From Thermoanaerobaculia bacterium (lineage in GTDB: Bacteria; Acidobacteriota; Thermoanaerobaculia; Gp7-AA8): DNA of 52,464 nucleotides. Positions 17,981 through 52,154 of the stretch are shown here, one piece after another. The position numbers and the translations under genes are program-made. Within the stretch, counting starts at the first letter, position 1; each line of letters opens with the position of its first letter. The DNA lies in NCBI GenBank assembly GCA_017883205.1, contig JADGNZ010000043.1, forward strand, positions 1 to 52,464, in the 5' to 3' direction. Below the pieces are notes generated by a model that saw nothing but the letters and a program-made list of their open reading frames with translations, had not been told where the DNA came from and searched no databases.

Positions 17981-17989
17981 AAACCTTTT

Positions 17990-18054: not shown

Positions 18055-18071
18055 AGCCTTTTTTCTCAAAG

Positions 18072-22962: not shown

Positions 22963-23021
22963 AACCACAGAGACACAGAGGGCACAGAGAAAACCTCTGT
23001 GTCCTCTGTGTCTCTGTGGTT
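22963..23021. repeat. 27-bp hairpin repeat, AACCACAGAGACACAGAG family
   Basis: Left arm 22963-22989, loop of five bases, right arm 22995-23021; there is one G/T mismatch that a G-U pair would tolerate. Nearly the same sequence as the hairpin at 17990-18054. It lies upstream of one minus-strand gene and downstream of another. Confidence 0.92.
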
Positions 23022-28368: not shown

Positions 28369-28385
28369 GCGGATAAGGAGACGTC

Positions 28386-29904: not shown

Positions 29905-32877
29905 CTACTTCACCCCATCCCTCAAATTCACGATGTGCGCGGCTTTGATCGGCGTTACGCCGCCGGTCACCGTTGGCGGGTCGGTGTAGATGATCGCGGA
30001 GAGGCCGATGGCGGTGCGGGCCTGATTGAGTGCGGTTCGAAGCTCGTTCTGGTGGAGTGCTTTGATCACTCCTCCCGATGCCAGTCCGGAATCGGTGAAG
30101 GATTGTGCGCCGAGGTTGGCGGCGGCGCGCATGGCGTTCACTGCCGTGCGCAGTTGCATCACATGGACGGCTCTGGCAGAGACGCCGGCGTTGAGCGGAT
30201 CGTCGGTGAAGATCGTCGTGGTGGCGGGATCGATGCTGCTGAATGCAGACATCGTCGCGCCGTTGATCGCGCGCACTTTGTAGAGATACGTGGTATCGGC
30301 GGTCAGACCGGGATCATTCGCTGTGAGTGTTGCGACCGTCGTCAGCGTCGTGAATCCGGCGCTGATGTTCGTGCTGCGCTGGATCTCGTAATTCGCCGCG
30401 CCGGCGACGGCGGACCATGAGATCGTCACCTGTGATGTGCTCGTGGCCGAGGCCACGAGGTTTGCCGGAGCGATCAGCGCGCCGCTGTTGATCTCGAGGT
30501 GATTGGTGGTGCCGCTCAGATCGCGGTTGAGCGTGATCCACAACTCGCTGGCGTCGGCACGTACTGAGGCGAAGTAGTCGGTATCGGCAACAAGCGTGGC
30601 CGAATCCAGTTTGACGACAGGCTCGCCGGCCGTGTAATTGCTCACAATGATCAGCGGCTTGCGCAGAGTCCCGGCGCCTGCGCCGCGTGTCGTGATCGTG
30701 TTCCCGAAATCGTGAACGGAGCAGTGATAGCGAAACGTTCCGCCGTTGGCTGGAACGACAAACGTGATCGTTCCGAGTGAGATGTTGTTGTTGGTCACGC
30801 TGCCGGGAGGGGCGCCGAGAATCTCGAACGGGTGACTTGCACTGGTATTGATGTTGAAGTGATAGGTGACGCCCTGAACCAGGGAGAGCGGCGGGTTCTG
30901 TCCGGAGATGCCATTGAAGGCGTAATAGAAAGCAGGCGCCGTGACATCGAATGTCGTGACCGGCGCAACCTGGATGTTTGCATCGAGCGCGTTTGCGCTG
31001 GCCCGGAACGCAAGCGCGCCATAGACATGGTTGTAGCCAACCGGCGCATAGGTGACGGTGTCGCCGCGCGTCACACCGGCGGGACCGGATGTGACCACGG
31101 TGCCAATCGCCGCGGTCAGCGTGAGCGACTGAGCCGTCTCGACCTGCGCAATTTGAGCGTCCACTGGCAGCGCGCTGTGCTGACCCAGAACGATGTAGGT
31201 GGAGTAGCTCTTCTTTGGATAGCCGGGAGCGGTGTCGGCTGACGACTCGACGGCGCCATTGTTGATGGTGTAAGTGTTCTGTCCGGCGAAGCCGAATTGC
31301 GTTTTCCAGGTCATCCGCGCGTTGTTGGTCGTGATGCCATCGGCATAAAGATTGTCGCCGCACGCCTGATACGGCCAATTATCGCCGTTGGGAAGCGCGT
31401 GTCCGGGGCCGGCGCTCTGGACGCCGTCTGCTTGTGTCTTGTGCCAGTACGGAGTGATGTCGCTACCGACGCTGAGGTCGCGGGCACCGCCGGCATCCTG
31501 CTGCCGGATCGTCTGCGTCTGCACGACTCCGATGGTCGCATCGAGCTTCGCAGGATTATCGGCAGTGAGTGGTCCATCGAGCCACTCCTTCACGAAGGGC
31601 ACTGTATTCTGTTGCGTCCAGTCAAAGGGGCTGTTCCATGTAATCGCAGTTCCGGCAGCGTTGGTCGTTGTAAATCTGTAGAAATCTCCCCACGCCACAC
31701 CGTTGAGATCATTGAATCCATAGCCGTCGATGTTGAGCTCACCGTATGGCGCGCGCGAATCGTCCCAATACATATTCGCGGCCACCGGCTGCCCTCCTGT
31801 AGCGGCGATCTGGTCGATGTCGTAGGTGACGGTCCACAATGGATTGTCGTGCCCGGTGGAGAAGACCCAATCGATCGTGACGGGGAGATAGCGCGTGATG
31901 ATCGAGCCGGAAGTCGGACAGTCTCGCGGATAGAGCTGGGTGAAACGGAAGATGGCGTGATGCTTTCCTTCGAAGATGCGTTGCCAGTGACCGGCGAATC
32001 CCATGCCGAGCGGCGAGTCATCGCCGTTGCAGCCGGCATAGTGAGCTGAGTGCATGGTCACATAGCCGAAACCGCCGTAGCCGGCGTTGCCGTACGTGGT
32101 CACCGTGGCCGTGCGCGTCTGGCCGTTGGAGAGCTGATACTTGTATTCGCGAAGCGCACCACCGTTCGATCCGAATTCTGTCTCGTTGTCGTTGTGAGCG
32201 AGGGACGCCACACGAGGCAGCCCGCTGCTATCGCGCCAGGTAAATCGATCGCTGGTGATCGCATGAACCACTACGTCGTGCTCGATCTGCATCGGGCTGA
32301 CCGCGGAACCGGTAGGTTGACCGAGAACGAAATCGTCGAAATAGGTCGCGCTGGCATCCGTGTGCGCCGCATCCTCATCGCTCTGGATATCGATGCGGTC
32401 GAAGTTGACGGCGTTGAACGGAGCCTGCCGGAGATCGATCGTCACCTGACGCCAGACGTTCTGCGCCACTCCCCCGCCGCTGATGTACGTGTCGAGCGCC
32501 GCGGAACTTCCGACGAACGATCCGTTCAACTCCAGCGCGAAATGGAACTGTTGCCCCGAGGCACTGCCGCCGTTGACCCAGAAACGAAGGATCGGCGTGT
32601 CGGAGGTATGCAGTGCTGTGAGAACGCCTCCAGGTGCATGTGCGAACGAGAGCGCATTGAAACTGTGGCCGAGGATCGACGCGGACTTCGTTCCCGTGTG
32701 AACGAATGCGGTTGCGTTCAGGTTCGTCCCGCCACCGAACGAATAGTCCGCAAAACCATTCTGCAGCGCATCGTCATAAACCGTCAGCGTCTGCGCGTGC
32801 GCGGCAAGCGCGAACATCGCTGCGGCAACTGCGAACACAACTCGAGAACTGGCCAGAACCGCCGCGCATCGTCTCAT
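29905..32877 (-). CDS. large secreted protein with a cupredoxin-like and an Fn3 domain
   Basis: 990 residues with a signal peptide (FAVAAAMFALAAHAQ) and GGAAGG before the ATG. Residues about 30-190 look like a carbohydrate-binding jelly roll (YFDDFVLGQ at its end). A middle of about 400 residues resembles nothing I can name. Near 670-735 the pattern ASHPFEILG ... YHCSVHDFGN looks like a blue-copper fold with His/Cys/His ligands, but the usual Met position is Gly. An Fn3 domain covers about 800-885. The C terminus repeats a 30-residue AVHVMQLRTAVNAMR / ALHQNELRTALNQ / AAHIVNLRDGVK unit. It is likely a surface or extracellular protein. Confidence 0.8.
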   Translation of the reverse strand: MRRCAAVLASSRVVFAVAAAMFALAAHAQTLTVYDDALQNGFADYSFGGGTNLNATAFVHTGTKSASILGHSFNALSFAHAPGGVLTALHTSDTPILRFWVNGGSASGQQFHFALELNGSFVGSSAALDTYISGGGVAQNVWRQVTIDLRQAPFNAVNFDRIDIQSDEDAAHTDASATYFDDFVLGQPTGSAVSPMQIEHDVVVHAITSDRFTWRDSSGLPRVASLAHNDNETEFGSNGGALREYKYQLSNGQTRTATVTTYGNAGYGGFGYVTMHSAHYAGCNGDDSPLGMGFAGHWQRIFEGKHHAIFRFTQLYPRDCPTSGSIITRYLPVTIDWVFSTGHDNPLWTVTYDIDQIAATGGQPVAANMYWDDSRAPYGELNIDGYGFNDLNGVAWGDFYRFTTTNAAGTAITWNSPFDWTQQNTVPFVKEWLDGPLTADNPAKLDATIGVVQTQTIRQQDAGGARDLSVGSDITPYWHKTQADGVQSAGPGHALPNGDNWPYQACGDNLYADGITTNNARMTWKTQFGFAGQNTYTINNGAVESSADTAPGYPKKSYSTYIVLGQHSALPVDAQIAQVETAQSLTLTAAIGTVVTSGPAGVTRGDTVTYAPVGYNHVYGALAFRASANALDANIQVAPVTTFDVTAPAFYYAFNGISGQNPPLSLVQGVTYHFNINTSASHPFEILGAPPGSVTNNNISLGTITFVVPANGGTFRYHCSVHDFGNTITTRGAGAGTLRKPLIIVSNYTAGEPVVKLDSATLVADTDYFASVRADASELWITLNRDLSGTTNHLEINSGALIAPANLVASATSTSQVTISWSAVAGAANYEIQRSTNISAGFTTLTTVATLTANDPGLTADTTYLYKVRAINGATMSAFSSIDPATTTIFTDDPLNAGVSARAVHVMQLRTAVNAMRAAANLGAQSFTDSGLASGGVIKALHQNELRTALNQARTAIGLSAIIYTDPPTVTGGVTPIKAAHIVNLRDGVK

Positions 32878-36693: not shown

Positions 36694-36785
36694 GGTGAAA
36701 GGTACGTGACGTGAGATCGAGAGTTTCTACGGACCGGCTGAAAAAGCAGATCACCTCAGAGACGCAGAGAGCACTGAGGAAAGCC

Positions 36786-38672: not shown

Positions 38673-38727
38673 ACCACAGAGCCGCAGCGGCCACGAGAAC
38701 CTCGGTGACTTCTGCGTCTCTGTGGTT
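38673..38727. repeat. degenerate AACCACAGAG hairpin
   Basis: ACCACAGAGCCGCAG (38673-38687) pairs imperfectly with CTGCGTCTCTGTGGTT (38712-38727). It is a worn member of the family at 17990 and 22963 and lies between two convergent genes, where it could end transcription. Confidence 0.65.
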
Positions 38728-38738
38728 ATGAACGTCCT

Positions 38739-39443
38739 TCAGAGATTGGCCAGGGTTACGTTGAGGGAGCCGTCCGGCGGAGTCAGATTGACGACGTATA
38801 TGAACGAAGCTCCCCAGTTGAATTGAAAGGTGTAAGCGTTGACGACGGTAGTGGCGAAATAGCCCGGGGGAGGCGCGTTGCCTGTTCCGGGGCCGCTGTT
38901 CACCGTGTAATTGAGAGCGATGAGGTAGCCGTTATTGCCGGCTGCATCTGCCGGTCCGCCGAGGATCGCTACATTGCTGATGTTCGCCGAGGGCACCTCC
39001 ATCAGCAACTGCATCCAGGCCATCTGCGAGGAACCTTGCGCCGCTTGCATGGAGTTGAGCGTGACCGGCGTGCCGAACGGAAGCGGCACCGGAGTAATGC
39101 CGGGAATGCCCGGTCCGATCGCCTGAATCATGATCGGAACGTCCTGGGGCGCGCTGACATTCGTGAGCGTGAGCGCCTGGCTCTGCCAATTGTTGGCCGT
39201 CAGAGTCGGATACGGGGTTAAGGCCGGAATCGTCAGCAACTGGGGTGCTGATCCACCGCTGGTAATGGCGAGCGTGCCGGAGTTGTTGACGGTTGCCAGA
39301 TCTTTCGCCGCGATGATCATCGTTCCGAGCGGCGTCTGCGGCATCGTCGCACTCTGCGCGACCTGCAGGACCATCGGGGAACCGTCCCACTGGGTGTTGT
39401 GAGTGTTCTGTCCCAACCTCTGAATTGCATCTTCGTTTGCCAT
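38739..39443 (-). CDS. paralogue D of the four-member 235-residue family
   Basis: 234 residues from the ATG chosen (MANEDAIQRLG), with AAGGAG about eight bases upstream; a longer frame running in from upstream is antisense-like. Family landmarks are QWDGSPM, MPQTPLGT, NNSGTLAITSGG, GPGIPGITP, LGGPADAAGNNGY and GYFATTVVNAYTFQFNWG. It is the most diverged of the four, with NVSAPQDVPI where the others have NVSANxDTP. No signal peptide or membrane segment is seen. The fold looks all-beta. It is the last gene of the unit. Function unknown. Confidence 0.85.
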   Translation of the reverse strand: MANEDAIQRLGQNTHNTQWDGSPMVLQVAQSATMPQTPLGTMIIAAKDLATVNNSGTLAITSGGSAPQLLTIPALTPYPTLTANNWQSQALTLTNVSAPQDVPIMIQAIGPGIPGITPVPLPFGTPVTLNSMQAAQGSSQMAWMQLLMEVPSANISNVAILGGPADAAGNNGYLIALNYTVNSGPGTGNAPPPGYFATTVVNAYTFQFNWGASFIYVVNLTPPDGSLNVTLANL

Positions 39444-39456
39444 GACCCACTCTCCT

Positions 39457-40167
39457 TCAGAGCGCCCGCAATGTGAGTTTGATACCGCTGCTGTTGAGGG
39501 CCGACATGTTCGCGGCGAAGATCGGCACCGCGCCGCAATTGAACTGGAGGGTGTAGCTGTTGCTCGTCGTCGTCGCGTAGTAGCCCGCCGGTGGTGGTGG
39601 TCCGGTGGGGCCGGAGTTACTACCGTAGTTAATACCAAAGACGTAGCCGTTGTTGCCGGTGCCGTCGACGGGTCCGCCGATGACGGCCAGAACGCCGAGG
39701 GAACTGTCAATAGAGGCGATCACTAGCTGCATCCACTGAGCTGACGTCGCCCCTTGCGCGGTTTGCCCCGGCCCTACAGCGAGGGTTGTACCGGTGTTCA
39801 ATGTCAGCGGGGTCGGTCCCGGAATGCCGCGGCCGATTGCCTGAATCCCGAACGGCGTGTCGCTGTTCGCGCTGACGTTGGTGATGCTCAAGTTGTTCGC
39901 ATTCCAGTTGTTGACGACTATCGAAGGCTGCAGCGACGGCATCACATTGTTGTAGAAAATGGGTGCTGCTCCGCCCGAAGTGACGCCGAGCGTTCCGGCG
40001 TTGTTCTGGGTTGCGACATTGCGGTAGGAAAAGATCATCGTGCCGTTCGATGTTTGCGGCATGTTGGCGCTTTGATTGACGAGGAGGGTGATCGGCGAGC
40101 CGTCCCAGGCCGCGATAACGACATTTTGCCCGAGAAGCTCGTACGGAAAAGTTGCCGCCGCGCTCAT
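39457..40167 (-). CDS. paralogue C of the four-member 235-residue family
   Basis: 236 residues. Landmarks: AWDGSPITLLVNQS, MPQTSNGT, NNAGTLGVTSGG, NNLSITNVSANSDTP, GRGIPGPTP, AQWMQL, IGGPVDGTGNNGY and GYYATTTSNSYTLQFN. The usual Trp in FNWG is Cys here (FNCG). It lies 13 bp from the next gene on the same strand. It has no signal peptide and no membrane helix, and an all-beta fold is likely. I know of no family with these motifs. Confidence 0.87.
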   Translation of the reverse strand: MSAAATFPYELLGQNVVIAAWDGSPITLLVNQSANMPQTSNGTMIFSYRNVATQNNAGTLGVTSGGAAPIFYNNVMPSLQPSIVVNNWNANNLSITNVSANSDTPFGIQAIGRGIPGPTPLTLNTGTTLAVGPGQTAQGATSAQWMQLVIASIDSSLGVLAVIGGPVDGTGNNGYVFGINYGSNSGPTGPPPPAGYYATTTSNSYTLQFNCGAVPIFAANMSALNSSGIKLTLRAL

Positions 40168-40180
40168 GTCGTCCCATCCA

Positions 40181-40906
40181 CTACAGAGCGATCAGGATAA
40201 CTTTTGCCACCGACGCCGTGTATGGCGACATGTTCACGACATAAACGCTGGCGCCCGCCCAATTGAACTGAAACGTGTAGCTGTTGCTCGTCGTGGTCGC
40301 ATAGTAGCCGGCGGGCGGAGTCGGGCCGCCGGGGCCGCTGTTCGTCGTCGCATTTACTGCGAATACGTAACCGTTGTTTCCGCTGCTGTCGACGGGGCCG
40401 CCGATGACCGCGAAGATGCAAAGACTCGGCGTGTTGCTGACCATCTGCAGTTGCATCCACTGCGGCGCGGTCTTACCCATTGCGCTCTGGCCGGGCGCGA
40501 GGGAGACGCCCTGGGGGCTCGTCGGAAGGTTGAGCGAGCTCTGGCCGGGAACGCCCGGTCCATAGGCGAAGATGTAGATGGGCGTGTCGTTGTTTGCGCT
40601 GACGTTCGACACGCTGAGGTTGTTGGCCTGCCAGTTGTTCATCCACATCGACGGCTGCTGGACGTTTGCCGGTGCCGTGACGAACGACGGAGCGCTGCCG
40701 CCCGAAGTGACGCCGAGCGTGCCGGAATTGTTGAGCGTCCCGACGTTGACCCAGCCCAGGATCATCGTGCCGTTCGCGGTCTGCGGCATTAGAGCGTTCT
40801 GGCCGACGAGCAGCGTCATTCCCGTGCCGTTCCAGGACACCACCGTAGGGGCGGCGCCGGCGAGTCGTGCGAAGCTGGACCGTGCGATCTTTCTCAATGC
40901 CGGCAT
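40181..40906 (-). CDS. paralogue B of the four-member 235-residue family
   Basis: 241 residues from the ATG chosen (MPALRKIARSSFARLAGAAP), with GAGGAA just upstream; the open frame extends into paralogue A but in a non-family reading. Landmarks: SWNGTGMTLLVGQN, MPQTANGT, NNSGTLGVTSGG, NNLSVSNVSANNDTP, GPGVPGQSS, PQWMQL, IGGPVDSSGNNGY and GYYATTTSNSYTFQFNW. The N terminus has a short basic stretch not present in A or C. Function unknown. Confidence 0.87.
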   Translation of the reverse strand: MPALRKIARSSFARLAGAAPTVVSWNGTGMTLLVGQNALMPQTANGTMILGWVNVGTLNNSGTLGVTSGGSAPSFVTAPANVQQPSMWMNNWQANNLSVSNVSANNDTPIYIFAYGPGVPGQSSLNLPTSPQGVSLAPGQSAMGKTAPQWMQLQMVSNTPSLCIFAVIGGPVDSSGNNGYVFAVNATTNSGPGGPTPPAGYYATTTSNSYTFQFNWAGASVYVVNMSPYTASVAKVILIAL

Positions 40907-40922
40907 GCTGTTCCTCGCTGCA

Positions 40923-40950
40923 ACCGGCCCCGGCATCTGCCGGGGCCGGT
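40923..40950. terminator. perfect 12-bp hairpin between paralogues A and B
   Basis: ACCGGCCCCGGC-ATCT-GCCGGGGCCGGT. It is the only strong hairpin inside the paralogue operon. No T tract follows, so it may attenuate transcription or stabilise an mRNA end, setting A apart from B to D. Confidence 0.55.
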
Positions 40951-40962
40951 CAGGAATACGGA

Positions 40963-41679
40963 TCAGAGAGCGCGCATCACAATGCTGAGAGCCTGCGCCG
41001 TGGACGGCGACAGGTTCGAGACGAAGACCTGATGTGAGCCCCAGTTGAACTGGAAGGTGAAGCTGTTGCTGGTCGTAGTGGCGTAGTAGCCGGCGGGAGG
41101 CGGGGCTCCGCCGGGGCCGGTATTCGCGGTGGCGTTCACTGCGATGACGTAGCCGTTGTTGCCGGTACCGTCCGGCGGTCCGCCGATGATGCCGAGAATG
41201 CCCAGGGTCGGCGCGGTCGACTGAATCAACAACTGCATCCACTGCGGGCTAGCGTTGCCGGCGGCACTCTGTCCGGCGCTCAGTGCGGTCGCCGTGTTGA
41301 TGGGAAGGTTCAGCGGGGTAATGCCCGGAATACCGGGTCCGACCATCTGCACGAGGATCGGGGTGTCGTTGTTCGCGCTGACGTTGGAGATGCTCAGGTT
41401 GTTCGACTTCCAGTTCTGAATCAGAATCGTCGGCTGGTTGGCATTCGCGGGAATGTCGAGGAACTGAGGAGGCGCCCCGCCGGAAGTGAGGCCGAGCGTT
41501 CCGCCGTTGTTTATTGTCGACCGGTTCGTCGAAGCAATAATGGTCGTGCCGTTCGGCGTCTGCGGCATGGCCAGGTTCTGGTTGACGAGAAGAACGCTTG
41601 GGGAACCGTTCCATGAGGCGTTGATCGCGCTGTCGGCGTGTCCGAGCAGCATGAAAGTGGGGGTTGATCCTTTAGCCAT
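40963..41679 (-). CDS. paralogue A of the four-member 235-residue family
   Basis: 238 residues with a strong AAGGAG seven bases before the ATG. Landmarks: SWNGSPSVLLVNQN, MPQTPNGT, NNGGTLGLTSGG, NNLSISNVSANNDTP, GPGIPGITP, PQWMQL, IGGPPDGTGNNGY and GYYATTTSNSFTFQFNWG. The C terminus ends in an MRAL that recurs as LRAL or LIAL in paralogues B and C. It is encoded 40 bp downstream of the giant gene. No signal peptide is seen. It is Asn/Thr/Gly/Pro-rich with few charges, as in surface or self-assembling proteins. Confidence 0.88.
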   Translation of the reverse strand: MAKGSTPTFMLLGHADSAINASWNGSPSVLLVNQNLAMPQTPNGTTIIASTNRSTINNGGTLGLTSGGAPPQFLDIPANANQPTILIQNWKSNNLSISNVSANNDTPILVQMVGPGIPGITPLNLPINTATALSAGQSAAGNASPQWMQLLIQSTAPTLGILGIIGGPPDGTGNNGYVIAVNATANTGPGGAPPPAGYYATTTSNSFTFQFNWGSHQVFVSNLSPSTAQALSIVMRAL

Positions 41680-41719
41680 CTCTTTTCTCCTTGTTGTTCA
41701 AAACTGCGTTGATGTGAGG

Positions 41720-44700
41720 TTATGGCGTTGCGACGTCGGTCAATTTCAGTTGGAGATTCCGGAGCCGTAAGACGGGTGTATTCAAACCGCTGAGCTGCGC
41801 GAACAGCGTGATGTCAAAGACGAACTGTGCGCCGGCCAGCGAGCCGGCGCCGAGGGTGATGGCGTTGTCCGCGGCCCAGTTGGCGACGGCCGTGGCGTAG
41901 ATGCTGGAGAAGTCGCTCAACTGCGACGGCTGCGTGGCATCGATGAGGAACGAGCGCGCCAGGGCCACCGGAACGAGCGGACTGACCGGGTTCGCCGAGA
42001 CCACGCCGCCCGGCGTGGAGACCGGGTACTGGAAGCTGCAGGCGACCTTCACGCGGCGCGGCGTCGAGGCATCGAGGCCCGCGGTTGCGCGTGCGCTCAG
42101 CAGCGCCTGCTGCGTGTCGTCATCCGCCAGCAGGTCGTACATCATCGTGTAGATCCGCTGGCAAAGGCTGCCGACGCCCGGCGGCGGAGCGGAAGGACAT
42201 CCGGTGCCGATCCCCTGATTCGGCAGCGTGGCGATGTTGATCGCTACGGAGTTGTCGACAAGCGGCGTGATCGGCGTGGTGGCGCGGACGATCGGCGTCA
42301 TGTAGACGTACTCCGGCTTCGCATACCACTGGGTGTTGTCGGGCGCGGTCATCTCGATGAGGTTGCGCTCGATCTGCAAACCGGCCAGCGCGTTCTCGGC
42401 GAAGAGAACATTCAGTTTGTCGGCTTCGATCTGGTGAATGACCCAGTCGCCGGCCAGCGGCGGCACCGGCGTGTAGGTATTGGTGATGCCGTTCGGCACG
42501 GTCCCCGTGAACTGGTTCGGGTACGGCTGCAGGCTGCCGGGAGCCAGCGCCTCGATCGAAAGCGTCACCCCTGGGAAGCTCGACTCCTGCGTTTCCCACT
42601 TGAGGGTAATGATCTGCGCGCCGGCACTTCCCTGCGGGACATCGGTGACGGTGTAGGTATCGGTGATGTTCGGAAGCAGCCGCCCGGCCGCGAGCGCCGT
42701 GGGCAGCGGCGTCCAGGTGGTGTTAGTGACGACGGCGGTGACGAGATCGGCGAACAGATTCGCCGCAACGCTCCAATTGGGATCGGTCAGCTTCGTCAGC
42801 ACCGGCAGGATCACCGGGAACGTTGCGCTGAACCGCGCCAGCGCTTCGAAGAGTGTGAACCGCTGCGCTTCACCGGCCGCCAGCGTCGAGTTGCTCTGGC
42901 CACCGCCTGCGGAGGTGGTCAGGTCCGTGTTGTAGGTGATCGCCGTCAGGATCATGTCGTGGACGGTGAGCTGCACCTGGTACGCGTAGGTGAGCTGCCA
43001 CGCGGCGGCATCCATGAGCGGGTTGTCCGTCACCGGCGGAATCGACGGCTGAGCCGCCTCTTGCAAGATGACCGTTGGCGGCGTCGGATATTCGCGGAAG
43101 ACGAGCGGAATGTTGGTCACGCCGCTTCCGAGCGGGGGCAGCGTCGTGTACGGATTGACGAGCTGCAGCCACATCGACGGCCGCGCCTCGCCCGGCGGCA
43201 CGGAGCCGGACGGCACGAGGAAGTACTGGAGGTGGGTGACGTTGTAGGCGAGCGACAGGGTCACGCACTTGGTGTCCCTCACGTCGGAAACGCCGAAGAG
43301 GAAGGTCAGAAGACTCGATCCGTTAGGCGTGATGGGGACAGTCGGCGATGAGAACGTGTAGCCTCTCAGATCGTCCTCGCTGATGGGGTTGCCTGAGCAT
43401 GAAGGGGTGCCGGCAGGGGGCGGAGTAGCCTTGATCGTCCCGAACAACGCGAAGTTATCGCCGATACCGGCCGGCAGCGTTCCCCAGCTAACACCGTACT
43501 GAACGACTGTGTCGGTCGTGTAGGCGGTGGCCAGCGCCGCGCGCATCTGCTGCTCGAATGTCTCCTGCGCTGCGGCCAACTCCGTAGTCGTTCTCGTAAA
43601 CGGCGAATCCGCCGGGAACAGCCAGTCGACCTCCCGAAGCGAATAGAGGCTCGCCAGCGTTCCCCGCCCCTCGGCGACCGCATCGTATGCCGGACGGGCA
43701 AGCTCGAACGCCGTCGACGCTGAGGCGGGGGCGAGGAAACCGTCCACCGCCTGGAAGAAGGTCGAGTTGAGCCGGTCGAGATCGACGTCGGTGAAGAGCT
43801 GCGAGTCGGACCAGTTGGGCGGCGGATTCAGCACCGCCGGAATCGACGGCATCGGCACGACTGCGGTATTCAAGGTGTTATCGAGCGGCTCGGGCGAGAG
43901 ATAGAACGGTCCCGCTCCGGCGGCGCCGATGGTGATGTTGAGAAGCGATTGCTGCACCGCCCAGAGCGACTGGTTCCCGCCCTTTCCGGAGCCGCTTCCG
44001 TCGGCTGCAACGCCTGCCTGCCGCAGCAGGGAGCGCGATCGAGCAACGCTCGAATTCTGGCTCAGCGACTGCGCGCCGTTCAGTCCTACCGACAGAACGA
44101 GCTGCGGGAATGCCTTCACGAAGACCGCCGCGAAGTCGGTGACGGATACAGTCGCACCACCCCCTACCGAGGCACCGACCGTGGAGGCGACGTTGGTGGT
44201 AGCGCGCTGCGCCGACGGGAAGGTGATGTTGCCGGAGGCGTCCTTCAGCATCGGCGAGATGAGGCTCGGATCGCGCTGGATCTGGAAGAGCATCGCGATC
44301 TCGAAGGCCGGCGGCAGCGCGCCCGTCCCGGTCACCTTGATCGTCAGCACGACCGGCGGGACGTTGAACGGCGGGACAGGATTCCGGAGGTACGTGATGA
44401 TCGATGAGGCCATCGTCGTGATGGCGGTGGCCTGCTGCTGGCTCAGCGTCACCGTGACCATGCTGCCGTCGGAATTCAGGGCGAGATTCGTCTCGACGTT
44501 GAAGCTGATCCCCGGCGCGGTGATCTGATCGTAGATCGTCGTCCACAATGTCAGCGCGGACGCAGCCTGGTCGGCGGTGAGCTGCTCGAACGCGCTCTGG
44601 CTGGGCGTCAGATAGACATTGAAGGTATTTGCCGCCGGACCGGCGGGATTGAAGTCGTAGTTCGTGACCAGGCCCTGCCACTGATCGAGCGACACGATCG

Positions 44701-47700
44701 GATCGAAGTAGTCATTGTTCACGCCCGAGAAGTTGAGCGGCGCCGGCATCTGGTTGCCGAAGGCGTCGTTCTGGAAGAAGTCGACGCTGACCGGTGATCC
44801 GATGCTGGCGTAACGATTGGGCGATGGTCCGAGCGGCTGATTCGCAGTGGCGACGTTGTAGAGCGGAATGTAGGTGCGGTACGAGCGCGTGCTGGCCGTA
44901 GCATTCGTGACGCCGTCGGCGGCGCTGCTGTTCGGATCGGGCTGCTGCGGCTGGACCGGCGCGGAAAGGTTGCCCGCCACGAAGCCGCTCGTCGCCGCGA
45001 CCTGATAGGTGATCAGGCTGTACAACGCATTCAACTGCGAGGCGTTGCCGCCCGACGCCTCCAGCATGCTGCGCAACTCATCCTCGTCCGTGATGCCGCT
45101 GTCGACCAGCGCCTTGATCACCTCGGAGCGGCGATAGTGCCTGTTCCCTTCGATGCTCGCCCCAGCGCGAAGCAGCGTCGGGCTCGGCCGCATCAACATC
45201 GCGGAATCGTCGCGGGTCATAACCGCGCCGATCGAACCGGCAGCGACGGTGCCATATTGAATCGAGAACGCGGGATTCGTCGTTTCTGCGTAGTAGACGA
45301 GCGTCGCATCGGCGCTGTTCAGGACGATCGAGTTGTAGAACGGCCGGATCCGCGCCGGCGACGCCGGCGTGTTCTGCTCGCCGGTCGGCAGATAGCTGAT
45401 AAGGATCGTGAGCGGCGCTGGCCCGCCGCTGAAGAGCGTCGGCGGAAGGCTCTTGCCGGCCTGGTTGAGGTAGCGCAGGTAGTAGCCGGTGGCGTTGGTG
45501 ACCGCCGCCTGCTGGATGATCTGCAGGAAGCCGGTGGCGTCGTCGATCTGCGCGCCGACCGGGACAGGCGGCGGAGCCTGCGCCGCGGCCAACATCATTA
45601 GCGACCCGCTCGGTGGTGGGGATGACTGCGTGGTCGTATTCGTGCGCAGGACGAAGACGTCCGAGGCATTGATCGCATCGGATGTCAGTCCTGTCGATCC
45701 AGCCGCGGTCTGGTAGAGGATCTGGATCGAGGAGATCGGCTGTTCGCTCTGCAGCACCTGCAGGATCTGCTCGAGCAGTTGTTGGTCGCTCTGGCTGGCG
45801 CCGGCGAGCGTGAAGACATCCGGCAGACTGCCACCAGCGCCGGCCGGCACCTGCGTGACGTTGAGCGTGATCTGCGTCGCCCAGCCGAAAGCGGTCGGCG
45901 AGAGTGGTGTCCCGCCCGGCATGTAGGGAGCGCCGGCGAGGCGCGACTCGACGAGCACGCTGATGTCGGCGCCGGCGGCCTGCAGTCTCTGCAGAGCTGA
46001 CGCATACGGCCGGAGGCTGACCACGGTACTCGAAGGTTGCGTCCACGGCACCGGGTTGTCGAACGAGAACGCCTGCGGCCCGATGTCGGTGAACGGCATC
46101 TGCTGCGGCGCGCTCGGAGACTGGATGTCGGTGGCCTGCGCCTGTTGGAACGGCTGCAGCCATGAGCTGGTGAGGTCCCAGCTCGCGGTCGACGTGATCC
46201 AAGTCTTCGTCGTGTCGGGGTTCGACAGCGCGATCGTGTACTTGTTCGACGCTCCGAGGGATCCGACAGGGAACTCCTGCCACAGCAGCGCGTACTGCGG
46301 ATTCGTCGTCGTGAGCGCCGTGCCGCCCGGAACGGTGAGTCCTGCCGTGTAAGGAAGGCGGGCGCCGCCGCGGAAGGAGCTCGACATCTGTCCGCCGAGC
46401 GAGGCGAACAACCCGTTGCCGACGGCCGTGCTGATCAGTGTGTTGATCGCCGCCTGCGGCACGCCGAGGTTCTGGATCGTCTGCAGCAGTTGATGGACGG
46501 CGCCGCGGATCAGGCCCGTGAAGTAGTTGAGGAAGATCTCCTGTATGAGCGGGATCGTCTCGTCGGCGGCTGCCAGTGTCGCCGTGAGCGCACCACCGGA
46601 CGACGCCCCCTCCTGGTTCACGAACATCTGGTTGAAGTAGTCGTCGACCATCGTGATGTAGGTGGCCGGCACGTTGTTCTTCGTGGAGAAGACATAGTCG
46701 AGATCGTCCGGGGTCGTCCCGCTCATCCGGCCGTTGGTCTTCATGTTGAAGAACGGCGGCATCGGGTACGTCGATGCGTACAGCGTGGTGCCGGCCGGGG
46801 CCTGGGGAACGGCAACCGTGGTCGCACCGAACACCGACAACTGCGACAGCAACGTCGGATAGTCGATCAGTCCGATCAGCGCCTCCGGCGTCTGATCGAG
46901 CGCCGCCAGCTGCGTCTCCGTGACGGTGAAGTTCCACCCGGGAAGGGTCAGCGCCTGGCCAACCGCCCACGTTGCGAGCTGCGTCGTCAATTTCTCGAAC
47001 GGCTTGAAGGTCGCGTAGTCGGGCGTGCCGGTTGGGGCGTTGTCGTACTCGACGCCGAGCGACGAGACCACCCATGGCGTTCCAGTGCCGGTGCTGGCCG
47101 GGAAGACCACGGTTCCTTCCGGCAAGTACCAGATCGCGAGCGAGGTGGTAAAGCCAGGAATCAACGGAAGGACGGCCGGCGCGCTGGCCAGGAGCGCGCG
47201 CGACGTGTGCGACGCGAACAGGCGCTGCTTCATCTCGAGCAGCTCGTTCGGCGAATCCGGCGCGAGCAACTGCCACTCGAACCGGAACGACGCGTTGAAG
47301 CTGAAGCTGATCGTGATCGAGAAGAGGAAGAGGTTGATCTCCACCGAGACGCTGACGCTGACGCTGGCCTCGATGTACAGGAGAATCGATCCGCTGCCCG
47401 GAATCGTCCTCTCCATCTTCAGAACGATGCCGATGCTGGCCTGCAGGCGGACGTTGACGCTGGCCTTGATGATGACGAAGTCGATCTTGCCGTACAGCTC
47501 TCCGATCACGCCGAACTGCCCCGTGAGCATGAGCGCGTCGGGCGACTGGAAGATGTTGTCGGAGCCGCTGGCCAGGTAACCGGCCGCGCCCTGGACGATG
47601 CCGAAGAAGGTGATGCTGACGCCGGCTTTGAGCGGGCCGGCGGTGAAGTCTTTGCCGACGCCGAGCCGCACCGCGAATCCGAACGCCAGGATGCTTGGAT

Positions 47701-50700
47701 ACGTGCCCACGAAAATGCTGCTCGTCGCGGAGCTGAGGCTGGCGATGTAGAAGCCGCCCGAGCCTGTGACCGGAATCGGCCCGGCCTGCGCCTGCACGCG
47801 GAAGCAGCGGCTCCAGTCGTCGCCGTTCGGGAATCCGAGGTCGACCTTCCAGTCGCCGTTCGTGTAGACGCTCACCGCGAGCGACGGAAGTGTCAGCGAC
47901 GCCGCACCAACCTGGAAGGTCCGGAGCGAGTCCGGAAGCGTCAGCTCGGCATAGAAGAGACCGATGCTGTCGCTGATCTTTGTGTACGTGATCTCGAAGT
48001 CAAACAGTTTTTCGACGCTGAGCGTCAGGCTGTAGAACGGCGTGACGTCGTAGAAGACGAAGCCGACCGTGATCTTCTCGAGCAGTGTGAAGTCGGTCAG
48101 GGCGATCCACTGGCCGTTCGGGTGGTAGACCTTGTCGTATTCGCTGTTCTCGATCGCGGTCCAGAAGTCGCCCGTCATGAAGTCGAGGAAGGTCTTGAAC
48201 GTCGTCGGAGGGCTGCTGGGATCCGGACCGACGCGCTGGCCGAGGCCGAGGTACATCAGCTTGAAAACGCTGCCGCCGTCGTCGCCTTCGACCAGGTCGA
48301 CAACGCGTTCGCCCGCCGTGAGGAGCTTCCGCTCGATTTCGGCCTTCGGTTCGTTGTTGACTGCCGCGATCCAGCCGATGTGCGCGGCGTCGTTGATCGG
48401 AGCGAACAGCGCGAAGTCGAACTGCGCAGTGCCCGGCGGCAGGCGCTGCCCAAGGATCTCGATCGAGGAGTTGTGAAGCGCCAGGACGAGCATCGCATCG
48501 CCGCCGTCCGTGGGCGTCTGGTAGCGAAGGATGAACTGCTCGATGATGAGATCGAGCACGCCCTGGATCTTGATCTCGAGCTTCCCGTCCGCCTGCGGAA
48601 GCTGGACACCGAAGGCGATGCCCCCCTGTACACCCGTGCCTGGCTGCAGCCAGCCGATGAGGAAGCTGAACTTGAACGCCTGGAGAGAACCGACCAGCGC
48701 GCCGAGCGTACCGAGGTCGAGATCGAACGCCAGCCCGTAGTTGAACTGGTCCGTCAGCGAGTAGCCCGGATCGAGGGGAACGCTGGAGAGCGAGAAGTAC
48801 CCCAGGTTCTCGAGCGTCTGCTGATCGGGATATTGGTTATAGAGGAACGACGTGAGCTTGAACGGGAGGAGCGCGAGAAGGGCATTCTTCGTCCCTTCTT
48901 TCGCCGGGCTGTTGGCAAGGTCGAGGCGGAGATTCCCGGGGTTGAAGTCGAGTTTCAGGTTTGCGGTCTTCGGCGAGTTTGGCGGGTTGACCGTGAGGTC
49001 GAAGCTCACCGAGATCCCGAGGTCGTTGAAGCTCAGCTTCTCGAACGAGAAGATGTCGAGGACGTTGAAGTCCTTGAACGTCATGCTGCCCCAGATCCCG
49101 AAGGCCGCCTGGATGTTCGAAGTGGTCTTGTCGTTGGGATTGACGGTCTCCTGCTGGAAGGAGAACTGGAGCTTCGTCAGTTCGATCTCTTCGAGGTAGG
49201 TGTTGTCGTCGAATTTGAAGGTGTAGGTCTTCTCGGCGACGAAGGAGTAGACGCCCTCCCCTGACGAGCTGTCGTCGCCGCTCGTGGAGTGGGCCTGATA
49301 CGAGCCGATGATGATGATGACGTTGTCGCCATCACCCTCCGCCGCTGTCCCGCCGTCATCCTTCTCCTCGGTCACCTCGGTGCCGAACAACGAATTGACA
49401 GTGAGATTCACCTTGCACGAGAAGCTGCTCAGCGACGAGTTCGTGAAAAGAGCGCGGAGGTACTCGACTTCAAAGTTGTAGTTAACGTTCACTCCGGTGA
49501 CAGCCGGAACCGCCGAAGCCGTATCGCCGGACGGCTTTTCGTAGTCGACGAGGCCGAAGAACGAGCTCTGTGCCAGCGTCGGCGTCGTGCTGCCCGGTTC
49601 AGTATCGTTGATGGATACGCCGACGTGATGGACGCGGAAGGCGTCGATGTTGCTCACCGGCGGATCGCCGGGATTGGCTGCCGGCACCGTCATGCCGCCC
49701 GTCACCGCCTTGATGGCGATCGGGAGGCTTTCGAGCTGCATGTTGCAGTTCAGCGCGAGCATGCCGCTGAAGTTCGGGTCGGTGACGACCTTGTAGAAGT
49801 TGTAGTAGAGCGAGCTCGTGTCCGGCTGGCCGCTCGGATCTCCGTCCGGGCAGTTCCCAGCGCCATAGACGGCTTCACACGCGTTCTGGATCTGTTTCTG
49901 GATGTACGCCTGCGCGTCGTCAGATGTGAATCCCTGCGACGTATTGAACGTCGCCGCCTGCGACCAGAGGCTGGTGTCGGCCACAAGGCTCGCAATCGAC
50001 TGGCCGGGGTAGAACTTCAGGATCACGATCGGCGGAGTGCCATCGCTGCTGCGTGTGCCGTCGGGTGAAAGGCTGAAAGGCCATCCGGCGATGTTGACCG
50101 TCTGATCGAACCCGGCAAAATCGAAGAGCCTCGTCCCGTCCGGGTCCGGCGCCGTCAGGCTGCTGATGACCAGGAAGATCTGGTTCTGCATCAGCGCCTC
50201 GCGGACCGCATCCCCCATGTTGGTGAACTGGAGGATCACCGATGCCGGCGGAGGAAGCTTGAGATCGGGACTGAGCCCGATCCGCGTGCTCTGCCAGACC
50301 TGATTCGCGTCGAGGCCGGCCAGCAGTCCCTGCGGCGTCATCGCCCACTTCAGGTCGTCGCCCGGCGCAAAAGCGGCGTGAACGAGAGCTCCGGAAGCGC
50401 GCGCGAGCTTGTTCGCCGATGACTGCGCCGCGGTGAAGTTGTTCTTGCGCGTCGGATTGATCGCCGTCGACTCCATCGCCAGGAAGGGTTTGTACTGGTC
50501 CAGCGTCGTCTGCGTCAGCCCGGCATACGGAACCATCGGCACCAGCGGACTGGAAGCGGCGGCAAGAGCGTTCGCCTTCCCCTTCGCGCTCCACGCCGGC
50601 ACCGGCAGGAAGTCGAGGACGTAGACATTGAGACCGCTTGCCGGCGCGGCGCCGCCAAGCATCGCCGCCGACGAACCGCTCTGATCGAAGAGCGGCGATT

Positions 50701-51925
50701 CCTGCGGCTGCGAGATGTACTGGCCCTCGGCCGTTACGAACTGAACCCACGACGTCGTGACGTTCCCGTTCATCGTGTCGAGGAACACCGGCGGCTTGTC
50801 CCAGGACGTCGACGGTGTCGTCTTCTGGAAAGCCGGTTGCCCCGTCTTCATCACCAGGCTGTCGACGGCTGCCGACGCGACCTGCACGTTCAGGAACTCG
50901 GTGCCGGTCGCGCCGCAGAGAAGGCCGGCCGATCCCGCGGCGGGCGTCGATCCGTCCACGATTACGCCGAAGGAGCCGGCCGGCGTGAGGTAGTAGTACT
51001 TCCCCTGATCCGTCGGCTGGTTCACCGGCCGGTTCGCAAAGGCCAGCCGGCTGGTGAGTGCCGGATCGCCGCCATTGACGGTTGTCAGCGCAAACGACTT
51101 TCCGTTCGCAGTCGTGTAGTACGAGCCGACCGTCGCATCGGTGGCCTGGAAGTACGACCGGGTGTCGACCAGCGGCTGCAGCACGTCGAGCCACACACTG
51201 AAATTGAGCGGCGTCGCCGCGCCGCCGGGAGCGCGTAGAAGCGGGTACGAAAGAGCGGCGAGGAGATTGTTCGCGCCCGGCCCGAAGTACATGAAGCCGG
51301 CCTCGAACCACGCCAGGTCATTGGTGGCGAATTGGAACGGGAGGTTGACGCTGCCGGCATGAACGTTCGTGCCGTCGTCCATCGGAAGGGTCATGTTGTC
51401 CGACGCCGGCACGAAGGAGTTGGACTGCGATTGACTCGGCGGCGCCGAGGTGAGCTGGACGTTCCGGGTGGCATTGTTGAAGACGAAGGAGTTGCTTCCG
51501 TCATCGAAGCTGATGTTCGGTCTCAGCGACGGGATCGGGCTCGCTGTCACGGCAAGAGTGATGCTGTTGAACACCAGCGTGTACGACTGCGAGACGAATG
51601 GCGAGCTGGTTCCCTGGCCGCCCGTCAGCACCAGCGTATTCGCCGTGACCTTCGGCCCGCTCTCTTGAAACCATCCGAATTGCGCACTCGGCGTCCCCTG
51701 AAAGAGGCCGCGGACGGCGGAGGCGAATGCGTCCCAATCGCGCGTTGCCGACGGGACGAAGAACGCGAAGTATCCCTGCTGGCTGGGATCGGTCCACGTC
51801 GCCTGCGATAGCTGGAACGTCGGATCCGTGCGGCCTGCGTCCTGGAACAGGAACGCAACGCACGCTTTCGACGGATCCGCCGAGGACAAGTAGAGGCCGC
51901 TCTTGAACAACTTGAAGTTGATCAT
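41720..51925 (-). CDS. giant 3401-residue beta-rich protein
   Basis: One uninterrupted frame. It starts MINFKLFKSGLYLSSADPSK with no signal peptide and no Shine-Dalgarno beyond GCGGA. Residues 1-800 are polar and beta-rich. About 900-1550 consists of amphipathic strands, for example IELTKLQFSFQQE, VSFDLTVNPP and, near 1500-1540, VSVSVSVEINLFLFSITISF; this resembles large proteins I remember as DUF6603, unverified. About 1565-2250 is a further beta region (NATGYYLRYL near its end), 2260-2290 a short helical part (RRSEVIKALVDSG), and 2300-3401 Thr/Pro/Asn-rich sequence. It is low in Cys and rich in small polar residues. Four paralogues follow in the same transcription unit. Function unknown. 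Confidence 0.88.
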   Translation of the reverse strand: MINFKLFKSGLYLSSADPSKACVAFLFQDAGRTDPTFQLSQATWTDPSQQGYFAFFVPSATRDWDAFASAVRGLFQGTPSAQFGWFQESGPKVTANTLVLTGGQGTSSPFVSQSYTLVFNSITLAVTASPIPSLRPNISFDDGSNSFVFNNATRNVQLTSAPPSQSQSNSFVPASDNMTLPMDDGTNVHAGSVNLPFQFATNDLAWFEAGFMYFGPGANNLLAALSYPLLRAPGGAATPLNFSVWLDVLQPLVDTRSYFQATDATVGSYYTTANGKSFALTTVNGGDPALTSRLAFANRPVNQPTDQGKYYYLTPAGSFGVIVDGSTPAAGSAGLLCGATGTEFLNVQVASAAVDSLVMKTGQPAFQKTTPSTSWDKPPVFLDTMNGNVTTSWVQFVTAEGQYISQPQESPLFDQSGSSAAMLGGAAPASGLNVYVLDFLPVPAWSAKGKANALAAASSPLVPMVPYAGLTQTTLDQYKPFLAMESTAINPTRKNNFTAAQSSANKLARASGALVHAAFAPGDDLKWAMTPQGLLAGLDANQVWQSTRIGLSPDLKLPPPASVILQFTNMGDAVREALMQNQIFLVISSLTAPDPDGTRLFDFAGFDQTVNIAGWPFSLSPDGTRSSDGTPPIVILKFYPGQSIASLVADTSLWSQAATFNTSQGFTSDDAQAYIQKQIQNACEAVYGAGNCPDGDPSGQPDTSSLYYNFYKVVTDPNFSGMLALNCNMQLESLPIAIKAVTGGMTVPAANPGDPPVSNIDAFRVHHVGVSINDTEPGSTTPTLAQSSFFGLVDYEKPSGDTASAVPAVTGVNVNYNFEVEYLRALFTNSSLSSFSCKVNLTVNSLFGTEVTEEKDDGGTAAEGDGDNVIIIIGSYQAHSTSGDDSSSGEGVYSFVAEKTYTFKFDDNTYLEEIELTKLQFSFQQETVNPNDKTTSNIQAAFGIWGSMTFKDFNVLDIFSFEKLSFNDLGISVSFDLTVNPPNSPKTANLKLDFNPGNLRLDLANSPAKEGTKNALLALLPFKLTSFLYNQYPDQQTLENLGYFSLSSVPLDPGYSLTDQFNYGLAFDLDLGTLGALVGSLQAFKFSFLIGWLQPGTGVQGGIAFGVQLPQADGKLEIKIQGVLDLIIEQFILRYQTPTDGGDAMLVLALHNSSIEILGQRLPPGTAQFDFALFAPINDAAHIGWIAAVNNEPKAEIERKLLTAGERVVDLVEGDDGGSVFKLMYLGLGQRVGPDPSSPPTTFKTFLDFMTGDFWTAIENSEYDKVYHPNGQWIALTDFTLLEKITVGFVFYDVTPFYSLTLSVEKLFDFEITYTKISDSIGLFYAELTLPDSLRTFQVGAASLTLPSLAVSVYTNGDWKVDLGFPNGDDWSRCFRVQAQAGPIPVTGSGGFYIASLSSATSSIFVGTYPSILAFGFAVRLGVGKDFTAGPLKAGVSITFFGIVQGAAGYLASGSDNIFQSPDALMLTGQFGVIGELYGKIDFVIIKASVNVRLQASIGIVLKMERTIPGSGSILLYIEASVSVSVSVEINLFLFSITISFSFNASFRFEWQLLAPDSPNELLEMKQRLFASHTSRALLASAPAVLPLIPGFTTSLAIWYLPEGTVVFPASTGTGTPWVVSSLGVEYDNAPTGTPDYATFKPFEKLTTQLATWAVGQALTLPGWNFTVTETQLAALDQTPEALIGLIDYPTLLSQLSVFGATTVAVPQAPAGTTLYASTYPMPPFFNMKTNGRMSGTTPDDLDYVFSTKNNVPATYITMVDDYFNQMFVNQEGASSGGALTATLAAADETIPLIQEIFLNYFTGLIRGAVHQLLQTIQNLGVPQAAINTLISTAVGNGLFASLGGQMSSSFRGGARLPYTAGLTVPGGTALTTTNPQYALLWQEFPVGSLGASNKYTIALSNPDTTKTWITSTASWDLTSSWLQPFQQAQATDIQSPSAPQQMPFTDIGPQAFSFDNPVPWTQPSSTVVSLRPYASALQRLQAAGADISVLVESRLAGAPYMPGGTPLSPTAFGWATQITLNVTQVPAGAGGSLPDVFTLAGASQSDQQLLEQILQVLQSEQPISSIQILYQTAAGSTGLTSDAINASDVFVLRTNTTTQSSPPPSGSLMMLAAAQAPPPVPVGAQIDDATGFLQIIQQAAVTNATGYYLRYLNQAGKSLPPTLFSGGPAPLTILISYLPTGEQNTPASPARIRPFYNSIVLNSADATLVYYAETTNPAFSIQYGTVAAGSIGAVMTRDDSAMLMRPSPTLLRAGASIEGNRHYRRSEVIKALVDSGITDEDELRSMLEASGGNASQLNALYSLITYQVAATSGFVAGNLSAPVQPQQPDPNSSAADGVTNATASTRSYRTYIPLYNVATANQPLGPSPNRYASIGSPVSVDFFQNDAFGNQMPAPLNFSGVNNDYFDPIVSLDQWQGLVTNYDFNPAGPAANTFNVYLTPSQSAFEQLTADQAASALTLWTTIYDQITAPGISFNVETNLALNSDGSMVTVTLSQQQATAITTMASSIITYLRNPVPPFNVPPVVLTIKVTGTGALPPAFEIAMLFQIQRDPSLISPMLKDASGNITFPSAQRATTNVASTVGASVGGGATVSVTDFAAVFVKAFPQLVLSVGLNGAQSLSQNSSVARSRSLLRQAGVAADGSGSGKGGNQSLWAVQQSLLNITIGAAGAGPFYLSPEPLDNTLNTAVVPMPSIPAVLNPPPNWSDSQLFTDVDLDRLNSTFFQAVDGFLAPASASTAFELARPAYDAVAEGRGTLASLYSLREVDWLFPADSPFTRTTTELAAAQETFEQQMRAALATAYTTDTVVQYGVSWGTLPAGIGDNFALFGTIKATPPPAGTPSCSGNPISEDDLRGYTFSSPTVPITPNGSSLLTFLFGVSDVRDTKCVTLSLAYNVTHLQYFLVPSGSVPPGEARPSMWLQLVNPYTTLPPLGSGVTNIPLVFREYPTPPTVILQEAAQPSIPPVTDNPLMDAAAWQLTYAYQVQLTVHDMILTAITYNTDLTTSAGGGQSNSTLAAGEAQRFTLFEALARFSATFPVILPVLTKLTDPNWSVAANLFADLVTAVVTNTTWTPLPTALAAGRLLPNITDTYTVTDVPQGSAGAQIITLKWETQESSFPGVTLSIEALAPGSLQPYPNQFTGTVPNGITNTYTPVPPLAGDWVIHQIEADKLNVLFAENALAGLQIERNLIEMTAPDNTQWYAKPEYVYMTPIVRATTPITPLVDNSVAINIATLPNQGIGTGCPSAPPPGVGSLCQRIYTMMYDLLADDDTQQALLSARATAGLDASTPRRVKVACSFQYPVSTPGGVVSANPVSPLVPVALARSFLIDATQPSQLSDFSSIYATAVANWAADNAITLGAGSLAGAQFVFDITLFAQLSGLNTPVLRLRNLQLKLTDVATP

Positions 51926-52051: not shown

Positions 52052-52102
52052 CTTCCTAAGTGGCCGGCATCTCTTTAATGAATCGCAGCGGCGCCAGAAA
52101 TG

Positions 52103-52134
52103 ACCGGGCGCGCCCGCGAATCGGCGCGCCCGGT
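52103..52134. terminator. 12-bp perfect hairpin downstream of the partial gene
   Basis: ACCGGGCGCGCC, eight-base loop, GGCGCGCCCGGT. It lies 21 bp beyond the stop of the gene at the right edge and upstream of the giant gene's promoter. No T tract follows, so Rho-independent termination is uncertain. Confidence 0.55.
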
Positions 52135-52154
52135 CCCGCTTTGCTACTTACGCT

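Follow-up and report, generated by a model that had tools for sequence, protein, structure and literature searches.

Introduction

What would a bacterium build from a protein of more than three thousand residues that matches no named family, and why should a row of small, mutually similar proteins be encoded directly behind it? The question is raised by contig JADGNZ010000043.1 of a Thermoanaerobaculia bacterium (assembly GCA_017883205.1), which we analysed whole (G000:C80 in our numbering; 52464 bases from a 6.37-Mb genome) and refer to as the window. It contains a unit of five genes, all on the (-) strand, in which a giant gene is followed by four small paralogues of 234-241 amino acids (aa), here w1 to w4. 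A preliminary description made from the sequence alone had noted this unit and likened the giant to a scaffold, with a filament, shell or adhesin decorated or capped by the small proteins as one possible arrangement. That interpretation is partly supported by what follows, though it overlooked the composite nature of the giant, in which two proteins are fused, and a hairpin between the first two small genes.

Results

Two proteins, A and B, are fused in the giant

Relatives of the giant were sought with the conserved core of its second part (B), either as a profile of four rows that include the window sequence (profile A2) or as a single sequence. The profile matches 6 of 396 genomes of the window's phylum, its own included, and 3 of 397 Sphingomonas-family genomes, among them G419, which is discussed below. 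The single sequence matches 8 of 72,556 plasmid records, from Paenibacillus, Nostoc, two Azospirillum, Embleya, Tistrella, Lysinibacillus and Mycetohabitans. This gives 15 distant loci (5 from the phylum, 2 from the Sphingomonas family and 8 on plasmids). At 13 of them a separate gene for a protein of 1083-1277 aa, which we call A, lies upstream of B on the same strand with 0-1 genes between, and its homology to the giant falls, as BLAST pieces, within giant residues 8-1213. In G389 A and B are fused into one chain of 3323 aa, and in G654 there is a core match only, A not being found. At 14/15 distant loci A and B are thus either fused or clustered in a constant order with no more than one gene separating them, and giants of this A-B family are found in the window's own phylum as well as in Bacillota, Cyanobacteriota, Pseudomonadota and Actinomycetota. 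The window giant has both of the features that define the family, the conserved B core and an A that is either upstream of B or, as here, fused to it. It is, on sequence comparison, a natural fusion of A and B.

In the three giants that were aligned across the junction (the window and two Sphingomonas loci, L015 and L016, described below) the two parts are joined by a length-variable, low-complexity linker. Lysinibacillus represents an intermediate state, with A and B adjacent but separate and B beginning at the core. B has some 600-1400 aa ahead of the core in 10 of the 13 unfused loci, and losing the middle part between A and B would join them. At most distant loci B is a separate gene (or two), in some cases with LysM domains; a Pfam scan detected no LysM in the B part of the window giant. 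The occurrence of A and B both as neighbours and as one chain suggests a joint function, that is, that the two work together.

The gene found between A and B is of the Exo_endo_phos type in 6 of the 13 unfused loci, as judged by Pfam matches above cut-off (G321, G368) or below it (G068, Nostoc), by annotation (A. lipoferum) or by similarity to the G321 gene (G058). The gene in the Tistrella gap (479 aa) has no Pfam match and was not counted. Other neighbours include a calcineurin-like phosphoesterase and a tyrosinase in G468, a NAL1-type protein and a metallophosphatase in Paenibacillus, and LamG proteins, fn3 proteins and weak Hint matches. Ahead of A in G321, G389, G068 and G368, with two copies in each of the last two, stands a family of 411-539 aa for which no Pfam model scores above cut-off. 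With such varied neighbours around a constant pair, the accessory set varies between loci and A-B is kept.

The plasmid clusters, which are uncharacterised, include AZL_RS29535-29540 of Azospirillum sp. B510, TMO_RS20215-20205 of Tistrella mobilis, RBRH_RS15285-15295 of Mycetohabitans rhizoxinica and NIES2107_74880-74860 of Nostoc carneum. They resemble the window in the homology of A and B (21-35% identity in BLAST pieces) and in their A-then-B order, but differ from it in keeping A and B separate, often with a gene between, in having LysM in some B proteins and in the absence of small paralogues. In the records examined, A-B relatives of about 2100-4200 aa are annotated only as hypothetical, LysM or Ig-like proteins, and a search of the open-licence PubMed Central (PMC) literature by protein accessions or keywords, including giant-LysM, returned nothing on the family.

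Some features of the surroundings are recorded in their own right. A neighbour of the Nostoc cluster is annotated as a caspase-like peptidase C14 (L027:31676-33820), and the Azospirillum lipoferum cluster (L033:27532-36885) has several insertion sequences and a type III-B CRISPR module in its vicinity. Resolvase-type recombinase frames, one recognised by Pfam and the other 72% identical to it, lie at most 10 kb from giant-related genes in two Sphingomonas-family genomes (L070:199-804 and L071, G654:3999-4739).

The unit is present in two phyla

The small proteins are far less widespread than the giant. A scan of contigs gave 60 pattern matches, two of which encode relatives of the small proteins, both in Sphingomonas metagenome-assembled genomes (G419, locus L015, and G420, locus L016). 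The small proteins were found in the window's own genome only, both among 60 relatives (four-row profile) and among the 396 genomes of the phylum, and in G419 alone among the 397 Sphingomonas-family genomes, G420 having been found separately. Two weak matches, in G567 (E 9.7e-4, 19 bits, 70 residues) and in contig G000:C25 (E 0.00235), were treated as chance and not counted. The giant sits directly upstream of the small genes in all three genomes that have them. None of the 15 distant A-B carriers has small proteins (profile searches, 0/5 and 0/10 genomes or records; the second search had no positive among its targets, and the same profile recovers its positives in other searches). Being confined to three giant-linked loci and absent from these distant carriers, the small proteins have the appearance of an accessory set dedicated to a single A-B branch. 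The co-occurrence envisaged in the preliminary description therefore runs one way, with a giant upstream in 3/3 genomes that have small proteins and none of the latter at the 15 loci of distant giants. The result that it named as counting against it, small proteins that prove to be common stand-alone enzymes, was not seen in the collections searched.

The order of the giant and the small-protein classes a, b and c (defined below) is identical in the three genomes, at different genomic sites, so that giant, a, b and c are, from gene content and order, present as a unit in two phyla. The two Sphingomonas loci have no common gene outside it (about 9 kb downstream and 12 kb upstream), and the window has only a generic ABC transporter in common with both downstream flanks and the L015 upstream flank, the L016 upstream stretch having been left out of this comparison. 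Some mechanically called neighbouring open reading frames (ORFs) seem to be wrong frames (e.g. L015:12300-13901).

The window giant is 61.3% identical to one Sphingomonas giant over 3229 aa and 58.4% to the other over 3186 aligned aa, both of these sequences being cut at the end of the locus. Over the B core, identity to the two Sphingomonas giants is 71% and 70%, compared to 36% for the giant of G058, a genome of the window's own class. For DnaK, which is also encoded in the window, the order is reversed, with 61% identity to Sphingomonas G420 and 70% to G058. A DnaK tree of 8 rows separates E. coli and Sphingomonadaceae from the window's phylum at 100/100; it places the window apart from Pseudomonadota and nothing finer, and leaves out G419, which gave a partial match only (57% over residues 285-638). 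In the window's own genome a search for 16S returned no gene. Since giant and DnaK give opposite orders of similarity, the simplest account is that the unit probably moved horizontally between phyla, in either direction.

The small proteins form old classes with a predicted double beta-sandwich fold

The arrangement of a giant gene and four tandem homologous small genes on one strand was confirmed by the ORFs and by pairwise identities of 47-56% among w1-w4 (all six pairs). The alignment contains the motif blocks noted earlier, the last of them slightly altered in two proteins (FTFQFN in w1, YTLQFN in w3). Traces of copying persist in the DNA, where direct repeats form families of 3 or 4 copies at spacings of 718-782 nucleotides (nt) and, in one case, of 1442. 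Nonsynonymous divergence (dN 0.39-0.57, by NG86) is below synonymous divergence (dS 0.90-1.47, near saturation), which indicates purifying selection.

A tree of ten sequences, from the window and both Sphingomonas loci, groups w1 with both Sphingomonas first copies (class a, support 87/91), w2 with both second copies (class b, 99/99) and, with weak support, w3 and w4 with both third copies (class c, 74/84). Genes follow the order of classes a, b, c at all three loci; each Sphingomonas unit holds three small genes, and w4 is an extra copy. As the classes are shared across phyla, the duplications would precede the transfer: the tree shows classes a and b to be older than it and gives weak support for the same in c, and the copies have been kept distinct. 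The tandem duplication of the preliminary description is thus correct, but it is old, at least classes a and b, and less surely c, predating the transfer. Distinct old classes of this kind would look like different subunits rather than a means of gene dosage.

An AlphaFold2 model built from 8 sequences (predicted local distance difference test, pLDDT, 81.7 for w1) is all-beta, with two beta-sandwich domains, and on this model the fold class of the small proteins is a double beta-sandwich. Comparison by VIA-align pairs the C-terminal domain with a ColG collagen-binding domain (1nqd; Z 9.5, 97 aa, root-mean-square deviation (rmsd) 3.0) and the N-terminal one with a PPC domain (5sv5; Z 8.7, 95 aa, rmsd 3.0), at just 5-8% identity, followed by nucleoplasmin, GOLD and complement folds at Z 7.1-8.6. 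The top Foldseek match is to the tandem domains of ColG, with a template modelling (TM) score of 0.28. Any likeness to PPC and ColG would lie in the modelled beta-sandwiches and does not extend to the sequence family: all eight members scanned are without a Pfam match, and a search of PDB sequences with the small-protein profile returned nothing at E<=10. A match to the SIDT ectodomain (Z 9.7, 165 aa, rmsd 5.2) was taken as the common tandem arrangement of two sandwiches, and matches in a viral structure library (query TM 0.16-0.36 among those listed) as generic. A comparison of the N-terminal and C-terminal halves by hhalign returned only an artefact at the cut. No copy of a small protein was recognised within the giant, the best BLAST match being no better than E 0.12.

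A hairpin lies between genes a and b at all three loci

The w1-w2 spacer contains a perfect hairpin of 12 bp, and its folding is stronger than that of shuffled sequences (z -4.28). The corresponding spacer in L015 has z -3.28, with 2/200 shuffles folding as well. A hairpin is found in 3/3 a-b spacers, compared to z values of +0.57 to +1.31 in 5/5 other unit spacers of at least 32 nt; the window's two 13-nt spacers are below the size usable for this test. By eye the three hairpin sequences are unrelated to each other. No T-run follows them, which makes them unlike intrinsic terminators. Perfect stems of at least 11 bp with a short loop occur in 9 entries across the window (some overlapping), and a hairpin as such is therefore not unique there; the notable point is its position between a and b, which the comparison shows to be common to three loci.

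A parallel exists in the cellulosome (cip-cel) operon of Clostridium cellulolyticum, where, as described in PMC4423207, a scaffold and its subunits are encoded in one operon whose intergenic stem-loops set subunit stoichiometry. By analogy, the a-b hairpin may set subunit ratios here. The likeness is one of regulation only, as Pfam finds no cohesin or dockerin in the giant or the small proteins.

Composition of the giant and searches for known families

The giant has 12.3% charged residues and w1-w4 have 3.3-4.3%, compared to 22% in a neighbouring 391-aa ORF, which from its appearance we take to be RtcB, and 30% in a response regulator; some other frames compared are unreliable as genes. Values of 10-17% are also found in A and B of Azospirillum, Embleya, Tistrella, Mycetohabitans, G068, G368 and G321. 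Such low charge fits a structural protein. The beta hydrophobic moment of the giant is 0.85-1.13 in the four 200-aa bins that cover residues 800-1600 and 0.63-0.89 elsewhere, and the conserved B core has the alternating residues expected of strands. A beta-rich composition, proposed earlier for the giant, is suggested there by sequence periodicity only; for the small proteins it is shown by a model of good confidence. As had also been proposed for the giant, no export signal was seen: neither it nor w1-w4 begins with a hydrophobic stretch in a simple scan of hydropathy, which is not a signal-peptide predictor.

Neither protein was placed in a named family, in agreement with the preliminary description. 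The giant has no Pfam family above cut-off and no match in NCBIfam, PHROGs or PADLOC at E<=1, while w1 is without a match in NCBIfam or PADLOC, and w1 and w3 without one in PHROGs. Neither w1 nor the B core was found in 50,697 phage records, nor w1 in the 72,556 plasmid records, and no relative was confirmed in viral contigs. One lead, DUF6603 (PF20248), resembles the A-B clusters in that its operons hold large uncharacterised proteins in rows of large genes. Its Pfam model has no match in the giant at E<=1 and none in the window's own genome at E<=1e-5, and hhalign with the core gives a probability of 17.7% (P 0.0014 for one comparison, 86 columns), so that identity with DUF6603 is not claimed; no paper on it was found in the open-licence PMC literature. 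DUF6603 genes (L059-L066) were seen on plasmids of haloarchaea, actinobacteria, rhizobia and Paenibacillus, and in 7/8 records, those annotated there, they stand among rows of large uncharacterised genes.

Discussion

The observations could be joined in a reading in which the five genes are a self-contained functional unit made up of an A-B giant scaffold, a-b-c subunits and a hairpin that tunes their ratio, a reading that we hold tentatively, at somewhat less than an even chance. The A+B giant would be a non-enzymatic, beta-rich, low-charge scaffold, and a, b and c, with the extra copy w4, would supply double beta-sandwich subunits with class-specific roles, which assemble on the giant or cap it. 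The hairpin after gene a may be a processing or stabilising element that leaves more of the giant-a transcript than of the b-c transcript and so sets subunit ratios, and the assembly would most likely leave the cytoplasm along a route that uses no Sec signal. The physical assembly, the scaffold role, the location and the function of the hairpin are all things that we infer.

Several points weigh against this reading. Contact among the giant and the small proteins is our own supposition from the sequences, and export is a guess, given that there is no signal peptide. Distant A-B loci are without a, b and c, so that the small proteins are not needed for A-B generally, and the full unit is known from three genomes only. 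Low charge, which the preliminary description put as uncharged, is correct for the unit but not family-wide: A and B proteins of Nostoc, Paenibacillus and Lysinibacillus have 18-25% charged residues (24.3% in the Lysinibacillus B, 20-25% in the Paenibacillus pieces), and G389 has 26.2%. Structure prediction, which the preliminary description had suggested, succeeded for the small protein, while for giant residues 760-1620 (three sequences) it gave a pLDDT of 32 and is uninformative. As for the hairpin, folding of the L016 a-b spacer is modest (z -2.24, equalled by 6/200 shuffles), and z is -2.06 for the stretch after w4 too, although one copy of a repeat with further copies in the window falls within that stretch.

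A broader proposal would make the A-B giants a class of macromolecular machine that is undescribed so far and moves horizontally, in which a two-part beta scaffold with interchangeable accessory sets (enzymes in many lineages, the heteromeric double beta-sandwich a-b-c here) builds a new kind of extracellular structure, with subunit ratios encoded in the intercistronic hairpin. This seems possible but rather doubtful. No family that we tested matched clearly, though with a good structure in hand the giant might yet be assigned to a known fold class.

The enzymes near A and B invite a different explanation, in which A-B is a released assembly of the toxin-complex kind that acts on other cells, a, b and c bind receptors, and neighbouring enzymes (Exo_endo_phos, metallophosphoesterase, tyrosinase, trypsin-like) serve as cargo or in processing. 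The Exo_endo_phos-type genes in the A-B gaps of 6 of the 13 unfused loci fit this, as do the other enzyme neighbours, the Hint-like matches (weaker than the Pfam cut-off) of proteins encoded upstream of two clusters, the lack of a hydrophobic N terminus in the giants and their plasmid-borne, patchy distribution. We nevertheless think it unlikely, as the enzyme partners differ between loci, the conserved unit holds no enzyme gene (the Asn_synthase downstream of the L016 unit is on the opposite strand), and neither a toxin family nor a toxin-complex domain was found for the giant in Pfam, NCBIfam or PADLOC. A little less probable is that the giant serves as the stalk of a classical adhesin, with the small proteins as lectins that bind carbohydrates or matrix. 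The ColG and PPC matches and the Foldseek result point in that direction, but the identity is very low, the TM score is poor and other folds follow closely in Z, and the giant resembles fibrillar adhesins only in its great length, having no known stalk, adhesive or anchor domain above the Pfam cut-off (as these are defined in PMC9210967) and no hydrophobic N terminus.

The A-B junction region (residues ~800-1600) could instead form a long amphipathic beta sheet or groove for a hydrophobic substrate, as a lipid bridge or storage matrix. We rate this as slightly less probable again: the raised hydrophobic moment and the alternating residues of the core favour it, while the model of this region has the low pLDDT given above and DUF6603, which is similar by eye, gives no significant hhalign match. 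Scarcely credible is an origin as structural genes of a phage or provirus, such as a tail fibre or capsid decoration. Low charge, beta-richness, large size and weak Foldseek matches to phage fibres are what one would expect of such proteins, but the PHROGs, phage-record and viral-contig searches described above were all negative, and no phage family was found among 10 scanned neighbours of the unit in the window.

What can be said apart from function is that A-B giants in several phyla, some of them plasmid-borne, fall together in one family whose architecture is A followed by B. A tractable handle on this family is offered by the compact version in the window, with defined small subunits, a shared hairpin position, four gene classes, one probable operon and predicted binding partners, and the scaffold reading, if true, would open an unexplored type of bacterial assembly.

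Layout of the unit and its surroundings

The coding limits of w1-w4 (Table 1) were set to agree with the alignment and the DNA; the mechanical ORFs are longer for w2 (353 aa) and w4 (323 aa), with starts upstream of the homologous part. The gaps from the giant through w1, w2 and w3 to w4 are 40, 56, 13 and 13 nt. Promoter-like matches in the region number 3, compared to a mean of 2.2 in shuffles (at or below chance level overall), and terminator-like matches 2, compared to 9.0 (below chance). The single transcription unit of the preliminary description is accordingly likely and no more, as the layout fits and the promoter and terminator matches are not above chance.

Table 1. Positions of the giant gene, its parts, the small genes and the a-b hairpin in the window.
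Feature	Position	Strand	Basis or remark
Giant gene	41720..51925	(-)	3401 aa, ATG start; natural A+B fusion
A part of giant, aa ~1-1199	48329..51925	(-)	BLAST against distant loci
A/B linker, aa ~1200-1217	48275..48328	(-)	Alignment of window, L015 and L016 giants
B part of giant, aa ~1218-3401	41723..48274	(-)	BLAST against distant loci
Conserved B core, amphipathic-strand periodicity	47126..48274	(-)	Alignment, periodicity; from 48328 = profile A2
w1, class a small protein, 238 aa	40963..41679	(-)	Alignment, AlphaFold2 model, tree
Hairpin, 12-bp perfect, G+C-rich, w1-w2 spacer	40923..40950	(-)	Folding, spacer z -4.28
w2, class b small protein, 241 aa	40181..40906	(-)	Alignment, tree
w3, small protein, class c (weak support), 236 aa	39457..40167	(-)	Alignment, tree
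w4, fourth small copy, 234 aa	38739..39443	(-)	Alignment, tree

The contig ends 539 nt upstream of the giant, and within this short stretch lies a perfect G+C hairpin of 13 bp (52102-52135), perhaps the end of a previous gene. Antisense to the giant there is an open frame of 924 aa (46490-49264, (+) strand), probably a by-product of codon bias. A dispersed palindromic repeat with ACCACAGAGACACAGAG-like arms occurs at 17989-18055, 22964-23020, 36753-36769 and 38673-38726, with 7 matches at up to 2 mismatches compared to 0.44 expected; one copy is a perfect inverted repeat of 30 bp, and one lies directly past w4. Elsewhere in the window a CHAT-domain gene is followed by a DUF7379 alpha/beta-hydrolase gene (26140-29846), perhaps a parallel to the caspase-like gene beside the Nostoc A-B cluster, and a 990-aa fn3 protein (29905-32877) has a signal-like N terminus and 12.8% charged residues, as low as the giant.

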